A stretch of 21,264 nt of DNA, taken from the IMG/VR virus record IMGVR_UViG_3300034104_001894, positions 1 through 21,264 of that record; one strand, given 5' to 3'. The notes under the pieces are model-generated. The model made no database searches and was not told the origin of the DNA. It was given only the letters and a program-made list of their open reading frames with translations. The DNA is from a virus. The position numbers and the translations under genes are program-made. Positions 3,023 to 14,032 of this stretch are shown in pieces (the first letter of the stretch is position 1; every line of letters begins with the position of its first letter).

Positions 3023-3114
3023 GACACATAAACTTCAGTTCCCACACAGCAGTGAGATGGGCTAAGTTATATACAATTCCTCGGAGCTGGAAGTAGAAAG
3101 CTGAAGAGTGTGTC
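3023..3114 (+). ncRNA. Duplicated structured RNA motif, copy A
   Basis: This 92-nt element has an outer helix GACACA/TGTGTC (3023-3028 with 3109-3114), a conserved internal loop (TAAA on the 5' side, AG on the 3' side), an inner helix CTTCAG/CTGAAG (3033-3038 with 3101-3106) and two inner short stems: CCCA/TGGG at 3041-3044 with 3058-3061, and TTCC/GGAA at 3077-3080 with 3089-3092. Its 74-nt core matches copy B near 13950 except for two transitions. The outer helix has a different sequence there but stays paired, strong evidence for an RNA structure. It ends 6 nt before the tRNA-like gene. No riboswitch or ribozyme class was recognised. Confidence 0.8.
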
Positions 3115-3120
3115 TTTTAT

Positions 3121-3230
3121 GGTCCCATAGCTCAGTTGATAGAGCGGAACCTCTGAAAATGTAAAGGATAGCCTGTTAGGGCATGCAATACATCAGGTTC
3201 AGGTCACAGGTTTGAATCCTGTTGGGATTA
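3121..3230 (+). tRNA. tRNA-like gene with a 44-nt anticodon loop
   Basis: The cloverleaf is clear. The acceptor stem is 3121-3127 with 3223-3229, including two G-U pairs. The D arm is GCTC/GAGC at 3130-3145. The anticodon stem is GAACC/GGTTC at 3147-3151 with 3196-3200. A normal AGGTC variable loop follows, then the T arm ACAGG-TTTGAAT-CCTGT at 3206-3222 and discriminator A3230. No CCA is encoded. The anticodon loop is 44 nt instead of 7 and contains an extra hairpin, ATGTA/TACAT at 3159-3163 with 3189-3193. The base at position 33 is C, not U, so I assign no amino acid. It could hold a tiny intron, or be a tRNA mimic or decayed tRNA. Confidence 0.7.
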
Positions 3231-3274
3231 CTAAAAAATGCTATTGTGGGAGTGACTTACTTCAACCCTCTGAC

Positions 3275-3298
3275 AGCCGGGAAAGACTGGCTTTTTAT
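3275..3298 (+). terminator. Intrinsic terminator after the tRNA-like gene
   Basis: AGCCGG at 3275-3280 pairs with CTGGCT at 3287-3292 through a GAAAGA loop, with one G-U pair, followed by five T. It would end the transcript carrying the structured RNA and the tRNA-like gene. Confidence 0.75.
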
Positions 3299-3320
3299 TG
3301 TTTAATTTAAATCTATGATT

Positions 3321-7863: not shown

Positions 7864-8804
7864 ATGAACAGGCAAGAAGTCCAAGAAGAAGCAATCAAAG
7901 CTACAGAGGGTAAACAACGTGTTTCAGTGGTACTTGGCACAGGGGTCGGCAAGACCCTTGTTGGCCTAACTCATATAGAGCAAAACACTACAGAGTTGAT
8001 GCGGTGCCTTATTGTAGCACCAAAGAAAGCAATCTTCCAATCATGGAAAGATGATGCTGTGAAATTTGGTAAACAAAATTTATTAGGTAGAATGGTATTT
8101 ACTACTTATCTAAGTCTGAATAAACATAACCCTAATGATTATGATGCTGTCTATTTGGATGAGATGCATAGTTTATTAGATAGTCACCGGGGATTCTTGC
8201 AGTTATACAAAGGCAAGATCCTCGGTCTTACTGGTACTCCACCAAAGAGAGACTATTCAGAGAAAGGTAAGTTAGTAAATGAATTCTGTCCTGTGGTATT
8301 TACATTTAAGGCAGATGATGCTGTAGAGAGTGGAATACTAAATGATTATCAGATCATTGTGCACCAATTGAGATTAACTGATCAGAAAGTATATCCGGTC
8401 AAAATGGGTAACAGACAGTACATGGCATCTGAGATAGATAACTATACTTATTGGTCTAGAAGATTAGATGTAGGGTCAGGAAATGTTCATATGATTAGAG
8501 TAATGAGAATGAAAGCATTAATGGATTATCCTAGCAAAGAAAGATATACTAAAAAGCTAATGGAAAGCATTAGTACAAAGTGTATCATATTTGCTAATAC
8601 TCAAGCTCAAGCTGATAAGTTATGTAAATATAGCTACCACAGCAACAACAAAGAGTCTGAAGATAATCTTGAAATGTTTAAAGCAGGTAAGATTACTAAG
8701 TTATCTACTGTACTGCAGTTAAATGAGGGTGTGAACATCCCAAATCTTAAACAAGGTATCATTATGCATGCATATGGTAATGAGAGAAAAGCTGCACAGA
8801 GGAT
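7864..8804 (+). CDS. SF2 DNA helicase, exon 1 (residues 1-313 plus split codon 314)
   Basis: This is a DEAD/DEAH-like superfamily 2 helicase. Motif I is GTGVGKT (residues 25-31), Ia is VAPKKA (51-56), II is LDEMH (98-102), III is LTGTPP (122-127), and motif V is QLNEGVNIPNLKQGII near 284. The frame reaches the start of motif VI (AAQR) and then runs into nonsense. Joining base 8804 to 9901 restores the motif as QRIGRLLR and yields 364 residues, so the gene is split by a group I intron. The helicase probably unwinds DNA or remodels replication or recombination intermediates. Confidence 0.9.
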
Positions 8805-9900
8805 AAAAATACCTGTCCTCTTTAAATCCCTTTAATTGTCTGGAAAGCTAAGGAGAAATCTATGCCAATCAGCAGCCAAGCTTAAGCAGTCCGCTTATGA
8901 AGGTTCAGAGACTATCTAGAAATAGAGTACATGTAATTAGCTACTACATGGAAACGGGGGACATTTGCATAATTAAATATTTTTATCTACCTTTACTTTG
9001 CATATATACAAAGAAATGGGAGATATAAAATACAAACTTTATTCATTAAGTGATGAAACTGGTGTTAGATATATTGGGATAACAAAACAAAAGTTATCAT
9101 ATAGACTATCTGGACACTTAGCATCATGTAGACAAGCATTTAAAAATAAAAAGTCTAGACATTATAGACATTGTTGGATAAAATCTTTACTTGATAGAGG
9201 TATCAAACCTACAATGTCTTTAATAGCTGAATTTAATTCTTCTGAAGAGGTAAAACAAGCTGAAATTAATACTATTAAGTTATATAAAAACTTAGTAAAT
9301 GGAACAGCTGGTGGAGATGGAGTAAGAGATTATAAATTTAGTGAAGAATATCTAGAAACTAAAAGATTTAAAGTAGATCAATATGATTTGCAAGGAAATC
9401 TTTTAGCAACATTTAAAAGCTTGTCAGAAGCTTCATTAGTAGTAACAGGAACTGAAAAATATAATGGAAAAATTTCAGCTGTTACAAAAGGGAAACATGG
9501 AAGGAGAACAGCTTTTGGTTATGTATGGAGAATACATGGTGAACCATTTGACAAATATCCAGTTACTCCTCAAATAAATATTACTGAAGCACAAAGAAAA
9601 GCAATAAGTATGAGACAGTTGGAAAATAATGTAATGAAAGGCAAGTTAGGTTTACAAAATGTTACAAGTAAACCTGTATTAATACTAGATACTGAAAATG
9701 TAATATTAAATATTGCAGAATCTGTCAGAGAAGTATCAGAACTTACTACATTATCAAGAAGAACAGTTTCAAAATTGCTTAAAGGAAATAAAGATTTTGC
9801 TGGTTATAAACTAGCATATGCAAATGAAGATATAGTCCAATCCTTACAGAAATGTAAGAGTTCAACATTAAAAGCTTTTGTTGGACAAATTTATGCCTAG
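8805..9900 (+). mobile_element. Group I self-splicing intron in the helicase gene
   Basis: The 5' exon ends in T8804 and the intron ends in G9900, as the class requires. The internal guide GTCCTCT at 8815-8821 pairs with exon bases AGAGGAT at 8798-8804, with the usual U-G at the splice site. TACCT at 8810-8814 pairs with the first exon-2 bases AGGTA, forming P10. Core elements are P (AATTGTCTGGAAA, 8834-8846), Q (AATCAGCAGCC, 8867-8877), R (GTTCAGAGACTA, 8903-8914) and S (AAGATATAGTCC, 9827-9838). P7 is GACTAT at 8910-8915 with ATAGTC at 9832-9837. The endonuclease gene occupies the P8 region between R and S. Confidence 0.93.
9016..9900 (+). CDS. GIY-YIG homing endonuclease within the intron, 294 aa
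   Basis: The GIY-YIG fold spans about residues 5-100: YSL at 9-11, YIG at 19-21, R30 and H34, a catalytic Glu in QAEINTIK at 83, and N95 in LVNGTAGG. Repeated DNA-binding modules of NUMOD/IENR type follow: VDQYDLQGNLLATFKSLSEAS, GKISAVTKGKHGRRTAFGYVWR, and KPVLILDTENVILNIAESVREVSE. It should cut intronless helicase alleles to spread the intron. I start it at ATG 9016; an in-frame TTG at 8998 is weaker. Its stop codon TAG is the last three intron bases, and codons for NEDIV encode the ribozyme's S element. Confidence 0.9.
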   Translation: MGDIKYKLYSLSDETGVRYIGITKQKLSYRLSGHLASCRQAFKNKKSRHYRHCWIKSLLDRGIKPTMSLIAEFNSSEEVKQAEINTIKLYKNLVNGTAGGDGVRDYKFSEEYLETKRFKVDQYDLQGNLLATFKSLSEASLVVTGTEKYNGKISAVTKGKHGRRTAFGYVWRIHGEPFDKYPVTPQINITEAQRKAISMRQLENNVMKGKLGLQNVTSKPVLILDTENVILNIAESVREVSELTTLSRRTVSKLLKGNKDFAGYKLAYANEDIVQSLQKCKSSTLKAFVGQIYA

Positions 9901-12987: not shown

Positions 12988-13929
12988 ATGGAAAATAAAT
13001 CTTACTTAAATGCAGACTTAATTGGTTCTAATGAACAGTTTGAAAAATCTATAACTAATGACTTTATAGGTAATGACTTTGAAGAACAATTAGAATGGTC
13101 TATGCTAATGATACAGAGTAAATTTAAGCAAATAAGATTAAGTAATGATGCTAATATAACAGCAAATACCTTTGATAAAGCTTACTTAATGTCTGCATCA
13201 CTAAATGAAGACTTAAAATATCTTAAACCTTTTGGTGATTTACAAGCTACACCGGAAATGTTTCCAAATCTGAACATAAAGTTCATGATTGTATCAGATA
13301 CCATTTCTCTTCAAAAGCACAAAGAGTTAACAGCAGTAGAAAAAAGAAATTTGTCCATAAAAAGTAAGCATGCTTATGAGAAATCAATTGCTTTTTATAA
13401 TAAGGATACAGAGTCTTTCTATACAGCAAAAGAAGGTTATGAAGTAAATCCCTCTTTCTTTAATGGTATTAATAGTCCAAGTGATCTACCTAAACCAATA
13501 TCTTTAAAGCCAAATTACAAGACTAATAAAAGTATTATGGAATTAGGTGTTGATTCTGCAGCAGAAGTTATAAATGGGATTAGTATGTCTTATCAAGTAG
13601 CACTATCATTGTATTATGAATGGTCTATATACATCAAAGAATATGATAATATTGGTTTAGTAATACCTATAAATCCTGAAATATTATCAGAAATTTATAA
13701 AACTTCTTTGTTGCAGTTTGAAGATAAAAAGAGAATGATTCATTTTGTTAAAGAACATTACCGTAGAAAAAAGGCAGATGTAAATCAAGATTATTCTGTT
13801 TTTATACAAAAGTATTTAAGAGGAGAGAATAAATTTAATTATAAAGGATTTAAAGCTGAAATAATTCCTCCTAAATATGATCTAAATAGAGTAAAAACAA
13901 GAAAAACTTTTATTGACACATTAACTTAA
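12988..13929 (+). CDS. Hypothetical protein, 313 aa
   Basis: This is one of the largest unassigned products in the window. It is mixed alpha/beta with no signal peptide, no membrane segment and no nucleotide-binding motif that I can see. The C-terminal third is basic (HYRRKKADVNQDYSVFIQKYLRGENKFNYKGFKAEI). It is preceded by the recurring leader and followed 9 nt later by copy B of the structured RNA. Its size and isolation suggest an early protein, but I do not recognise the family. Confidence 0.65.
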   Translation: MENKSYLNADLIGSNEQFEKSITNDFIGNDFEEQLEWSMLMIQSKFKQIRLSNDANITANTFDKAYLMSASLNEDLKYLKPFGDLQATPEMFPNLNIKFMIVSDTISLQKHKELTAVEKRNLSIKSKHAYEKSIAFYNKDTESFYTAKEGYEVNPSFFNGINSPSDLPKPISLKPNYKTNKSIMELGVDSAAEVINGISMSYQVALSLYYEWSIYIKEYDNIGLVIPINPEILSEIYKTSLLQFEDKKRMIHFVKEHYRRKKADVNQDYSVFIQKYLRGENKFNYKGFKAEIIPPKYDLNRVKTRKTFIDTLT

Positions 13930-13938
13930 ATGAAAAAG

Positions 13939-14032
13939 ACATTAGTAAACTTCAGTTCCCACACAGCGGTGAGATGGGCTAAGTTATATACAATTCCTCG
14001 GAGCTGGGAGTAGAAAGCTGAAGAGCTAATGT
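13939..14032 (+). ncRNA. Duplicated structured RNA motif, copy B
   Basis: The outer helix is ACATTAG/CTAATGT (13939-13945 with 14026-14032), different in sequence from copy A yet fully paired. The internal loop (TAAA / AG) and inner helix CTTCAG/CTGAAG (13950-13955 with 14018-14023) are unchanged. The core differs from copy A only by A to G at two sites; the second changes a U-A pair to U-G in the TTCC/GGRA stem, so pairing is kept. It lies between the 12988 gene and the small zinc-ribbon gene. Confidence 0.8.

Follow-up and report, generated by a model that had tools for sequence, protein, structure and literature searches.

A previously undescribed family of small structured RNAs beside phage tRNA genes

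The window analyzed here is a stretch of 21,264 nucleotides of viral DNA, positions 1 to 21,264 of IMG/VR record IMGVR_UViG_3300034104_001894. Genes encoded in the window include a uracil-DNA glycosylase, an SNF2-type helicase, a DnaB-like helicase and Sak4, and the window resembles crAss-like phages. A helicase ORF (7864-8835), which perhaps stops prematurely, is directly followed by a GIY-YIG endonuclease ORF (8998-9900), and a homing endonuclease or intron within the helicase gene is possible.

The window contains two near-identical copies of a small RNA element. An earlier note on this DNA had placed them at 3023-3114 and 13939-14032, with a core differing by two transitions; both the positions and the near-identity of the core were confirmed, and a repeat finder set the common register at 80 nt (3029-3108 and 13946-14025), over which the copies are 98% identical and differ by two A/G transitions. 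Copy 1 is followed by a tRNA gene at a distance of 7 nt, while copy 2 is located between two protein genes. Copy 2 lies just upstream of an ORF, and so does the copy in locus L012. The features are as follows, with the basis for each in parentheses; internal features of copy 2 are found at copy 1 coordinates + 10917.

3023..3114, + strand: copy 1 including outer helix P1 (sequence; 118 bits)
3023..3028, + strand: copy 1 P1 5' strand GACACA, paired with 3109-3114 (sequence; covariation helix 1)
3033..3040, + strand: copy 1 P2 5' strand CTTCAGTT, paired with 3099-3106 (covariation; P2 pairs rank 1, 3 and 5 among all column pairs)
3041..3043, + strand: copy 1 putative pseudoknot 1 5' strand CCC, with GGG 3059-3061 (near-invariant complementarity)
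3047..3050, + strand: copy 1 P3 5' strand CAGC, with GCTG 3086-3089 (covariation AT/CG/TA, rank 2)
3054..3056, + strand: copy 1 P4 5' strand GAG, with CTC 3080-3082 (covariation GAG/CTC, ACG/CGT, GCG/CGC, CAG/CTG)
3059..3061, + strand: copy 1 putative pseudoknot 1 3' strand GGG (near-invariant complementarity)
3062..3066, + strand: copy 1 CTAAG, forming the conserved C(UAA)G lone pair, which covaries with U(UAA)A (columns 41-45: CG 111, TA 6)
3076..3079, + strand: copy 1 pseudoknot 2 5' strand ATTC, with AAGT 3091-3094, C-A mismatch here (rank 7; CG 76, TA 33, TG 6, CA 2)
3080..3082, + strand: copy 1 P4 3' strand CTC (covariation)
3086..3089, + strand: copy 1 P3 3' strand GCTG (covariation)
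3091..3094, + strand: copy 1 pseudoknot 2 3' strand AAGT, family consensus RAGT (covariation)
3099..3106, + strand: copy 1 P2 3' strand AGCTGAAG (covariation)
3109..3114, + strand: copy 1 P1 3' strand TGTGTC (sequence; covariation helix 1)
3121..3231, + strand: tRNA-Phe(GAA), its anticodon arm enlarged by about 35 nt, 7 nt past copy 1 (Rfam tRNA match; sequence)
3275..3299, + strand: hairpin and T run resembling an intrinsic terminator, 3' of copy 1 and tRNA-Phe (read from sequence)
13939..14032, + strand: copy 2 including outer helix P1 (123 bits)
13939..13945, + strand: copy 2 P1 5' strand ACATTAG, paired with 14026-14032 (sequence; covariation helix 1)
14026..14032, + strand: copy 2 P1 3' strand CTAATGT (sequence; covariation helix 1)

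The mismatch in copy 1 is due to one of the two transitions, an A in place of G at 3091, within a covarying pair of pseudoknot 2. Directly before copy 2, ATTGACACATTAACTT at 13914-13930 is similar to ATTGACACATAAACTT on the 5' flank of copy 1 and is perhaps the remnant of an older copy. The insert of about 35 nt in tRNA-Phe(GAA) is conserved in L027 and L047, and similar inserts were observed in many element-adjacent tRNAs of other phages. Such tRNAs, if functional, need a route for removal of the insert; we know of none in phages.

Relatives were collected from IMG/VR. A 15-mer scan yielded about 36 true copies among 59 loci, the other 23 or so loci being chance matches, and degenerate-pattern scans supplied further copies. 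The family comprises at least 207 copies with duplicates included, at least 155 with distinct flanks and at least 117 distinct cores, nearly all on IMG/VR phage contigs. A covariance model built from 76 relatives scored the window copies at 118 and 123 bits, whereas the next-best place in the window reached 11 bits. Outside this collection, a strict pattern search of 84,980 species genomes returned a single contig, from a metagenome bin, and BLASTN found nothing relevant in isolate phages, with several subtypes as queries, or in plasmids, with one subtype as query. Neither copy was matched when the whole window was searched with Rfam 15 at the gathering threshold, the sole match being the tRNA at 3121-3230, and at E<=10 the copy 1 region gave nothing except this adjoining tRNA. 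Divergent members (loci L196, L082, L268 and L210) likewise gave no above-threshold match on the element at E<=5; in L082 its end is touched by a weak tRNA-model match (24.4 bits vs a threshold of 29). The core sequence was not found printed in the open-access papers searched. The element is a previously undescribed RNA family absent from Rfam 15.

Comparative analysis supports the fold well. The strand order is P2-CCC-P3-P4-GGG-AUUY-P4'-P3'-RAGU-P2', with a P2 of 8 bp. Across 76 sequences, P1 to P4 and the two pseudoknots show 91.4% standard pairs, and both sides changed in 21 of 32 pairs; the covariation score is 0.358, whereas shuffles gave 0.139 and slid controls no more than 0.104. RNAalifold recovers the nested part unaided. 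An all-against-all scan of column pairs in the 117 cores, run blind to the model, placed only model pairs and one lone pair among the top eleven, these belonging to P2, P3, P4, pseudoknot 2 (C-G, U-A, U-G), P1 and the C(UAA)G to U(UAA)A exchange. Pseudoknot 2, AUUY with RAGU, thus covaries; pseudoknot 1 (CCC/GGG) is near-invariant, with one U-G variant, which places it beyond a covariation test, and we infer it from complementarity. P4 occurs as GAG/CTC, ACG/CGT, GCG/CGC and CAG/CTG, and in some copies it is followed by an additional hairpin. Folding of single sequences did not convincingly find this structure (z -2.3 and -1.4), so the claim is carried by the comparative evidence. The strand order suggests a model in which pseudoknot 1 is stacked on by P2 and pseudoknot 2 by P4-P3. 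The near-invariant unpaired letters are those of the apical loop 3' of GGG and of AGAA, and the most conserved part is the apical loop past GGG together with GRAGUAGAA, not the outer helix.

The earlier note had described the outer helix as changing from GACACA/TGTGTC to ACATTAG/CTAATGT while remaining paired, and the family-wide covariation bears out such exchanges. At least six consecutive P1 pairs are possible in 88% of distinct flank pairs vs 43% of swapped and 26% of shuffled flanks. Swapped flanks pair fairly often because P1 sequences fall into a few recurring types (ACACA, TATTAG, GACGA), and P1 changes are for the same reason not all independent. The helix is not kept throughout: about 7% of distinct flank pairs allow four P1 pairs or fewer, nearly all of them squeezed against tRNAs, as in the P1-less arrangement tRNA-Gly(UCC)-AA-P2...P2'-tRNA-Gln(UUG), and the conserved core of the element resides in P2-P4 and the two pseudoknots. 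P1 is therefore a common yet dispensable clamp. The TAAA/AG internal loop, previously described as fixed, also occurs in the family as TGAA, TTAA, TCAA and other forms.

The element is closely associated with tRNA genes. Of 155 copies, 87 have a tRNA no more than 25 nt away, whereas this is true of 4.1% of positions drawn at random from these loci. At distances up to 150 nt, 170 tRNAs were counted on the strand of the element and 0 on the opposite strand. These counts are probably underestimates since many neighboring tRNAs carry inserts. Both sides are occupied by tRNAs within 25 nt in 19 of 155 copies. In 11 copies P2 begins 1-3 nt past the upstream tRNA, with a tRNA-Gln 5 nt after P2 in most of them, an arrangement in which tRNA processing alone would define the ends of the element. 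Complete tRNAs abut the element on both sides in several arrays, for which reason its reading as a tRNA intron, or as a piece of a permuted tRNA, was rejected. As a structured non-coding RNA beside phage tRNA genes and on their strand, the element adds a family to a kind already known, the phage RNAs at tRNA islands.

Copy number was examined in 100 phage records (8.7-296 kb) searched whole. The element was detected in 98, of which 93 held one copy and five held two; most records may be fragments, so a single copy per record is a lower bound. The two negative records had been picked up by a loose pattern, perhaps by chance. Two copies are thus true of the window and exceptional in the family. 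In one of the five two-copy records (G080) both matches are weak; its locus L200 (122103-122204 and 122770-122884) holds two highly divergent relatives of 24 and 22 bits, one of which resembles the motif chiefly over the 3' half. Unlike the window, two-copy phages carry two different subtypes (L177, L196, L214, 1011 nt apart; L110/L137, 174 nt apart). The loci are rich in tRNAs, 119 of them containing 820 tRNAs vs 122 elements. Among the 38 larger records, 21 encode the T4-type capsid protein Gp23, and five other records encode relatives of the DnaB-like helicase of the window (four 55-80% identical, one 29%). The two sets do not overlap, indicating that unrelated phages share the RNA; its carriers include T4-like and crAss-like phages. 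The Rfam results and the covariation uphold the view of the earlier note, namely a functional structured RNA of no known class with a covarying outer helix.

Several known RNAs invite comparison. Phage T4 makes RNAs C and D, small stable non-tRNA RNAs of unknown function, within its tRNA cluster, a setting like that of the element; the likeness is one of description only. Twister ribozymes consist of a stem, an internal loop starting UAA, a second stem and an apical loop held by pseudoknots, and the element is similarly built, but its apical loop pairs with strands flanking P3 rather than with the P1-P2 loop. Membership of twister was rejected given the variable UAAA loop and no Rfam match at E<=10. 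HDV/theta membership was also rejected, as the strand order differs from the nested double pseudoknot of HDV and no HDV-type match was found in Rfam. The freshwater-1 RNA (RF02979), a small-RNA family present in carrier locus L010, occupies a separate place with no overlap. GOLLD (RF02032) and ROOL, two structured RNAs that phages encode, frequently close to tRNA islands, likewise have no known function (PMC12286853). They share this setting with the element but are several hundred nt long vs about 80 nt, and differ in sequence and fold; in L108 the GOLLD model matches elsewhere in the locus and not on the element.

The earlier suggestion of a ribozyme, riboswitch or protein-binding element can be narrowed toward an RNA gene kept in single copy within tRNA islands. 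A small self-cleaving ribozyme of a new class, cutting tRNA-island transcripts in a theta-like manner with another fold, would account for a small RNA with an invariant core, a variable outer helix and an apparent double pseudoknot, located directly 3' of tRNA ends. Phage precedent exists in the HDV-like theta ribozymes, small RNAs directly 3' of phage tRNAs and nearly all in phages (PMC10879173). Yet 77% of tRNA-associated theta ribozymes lie within 1 nt of the tRNA (PMC10879173), whereas the distance from the upstream tRNA 3' end to P2 ranges from 1 to 20 nt. Together with the usual single copy against many tRNAs, a dispensable P1 and internal loop, and no match to any Rfam ribozyme, this renders self-cleavage rather unlikely. 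The invariant core and variable closing helix also recall riboswitch anatomy, and some copies (copy 2 and that of L012) precede ORFs, as expected of a cis-acting aptamer or protein-binding element that controls the adjacent tRNA or gene. A riboswitch should be tied conservedly to the downstream gene it regulates; here, the element is followed by tRNAs of many kinds and by different ORFs, and the downstream sequence differs even among close relatives with the same upstream flank (L051 vs L058/L061). With tRNAs on both sides of 19 copies, P1 sometimes absent and no shared expression platform, cis control seems distinctly improbable.

Insertion of a mobile or selfish repeat beside tRNA genes would explain the same core within different flanks in unrelated phages and the near-identical pair in the window. 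Against this stand the single copy in 93 of 98 records, compensatory changes in the core helices, which denote selection on the RNA, the constant orientation on the tRNA strand, and no target-site duplication seen; we give this explanation very little credence. One gene among many tRNAs, ends set by tRNAs, varied downstream genes and conservation across lineages are best fitted by a trans-acting RNA. We accordingly favor, at about an even chance of being correct, a stand-alone small RNA gene whose product is freed by tRNA-processing enzymes and acts in trans on a putative partner.

Under the trans-acting reading, large phages would carry a small RNA gene, usually one per genome, that is co-transcribed with the neighboring tRNAs. 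The 5' side of the element would be freed by 3' processing of the upstream tRNA and the 3' side by the RNase P cut at the downstream tRNA, leaving a compact, persistent RNA, about 70-95 nt long, that is closed by P2 and, if present, P1. The pseudoknot-stacked helices would display the invariant apical loop and AGAA, a surface whose most probable role is trans binding of a partner (a host protein, RNP or metabolite) met alike by unrelated phages. More tentatively, the element may be a small RNA of a new class, catalytic or ligand-binding and with a double-pseudoknot fold of its own, kept as a single-copy accessory gene across unrelated phages, for example as a counter-defense or host-takeover RNA. 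A near-invariant compact core, usually as one gene, in both T4-like and crAss-like phages implies a strongly selected function in infection, outside annotated families. The RNA is small enough for structural and binding studies to begin at once, and its distribution allows a direct test of a trans function of phage tRNA-island RNAs, a question open for GOLLD and ROOL. Neither complementarity to nor mimicry of E. coli 16S/23S rRNA by the element exceeded shuffles. A likeness to the 690/790 loops of 16S rRNA (AGCGGTGARATG, TTAGATAC) was rejected, being not above shuffles and not retained in subtypes.

Further RNAs were noted in the window and in carrier loci. GOLLD (L108 4864-5270), a tmRNA (L108 5619-6026) and freshwater-1 RNA (L010 1382-1443) mark the carrier phages as rich in non-coding RNA. 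Odd tRNA-like genes 3' of the element in L002, L025, L084 and L122 share, in their D/anticodon region, the sequence TAATGAGGC ... GGTGCCGAGTCC or slight variations of it. A recurring sequence with complementary ends, TGTGTTGTTCCCTTGAGAAAG ... ACAACACAGAGG ... CTC, occurs just upstream of the element in L004, L032 and L081 and downstream in L134, and is possibly a further unlisted RNA. In the window, the ORF-free region 630-790 has a very stable predicted fold (z -5.4), with a long closing stem TGCACCA...TGGTGCA and a branched interior, and possibly forms another structured RNA. Next to it, 834-945 contains a possible pseudoknot, in which TACCACATAAG would pair with CTTATGTGGTA and AGAAGAATTA with TAATTCTTCT.
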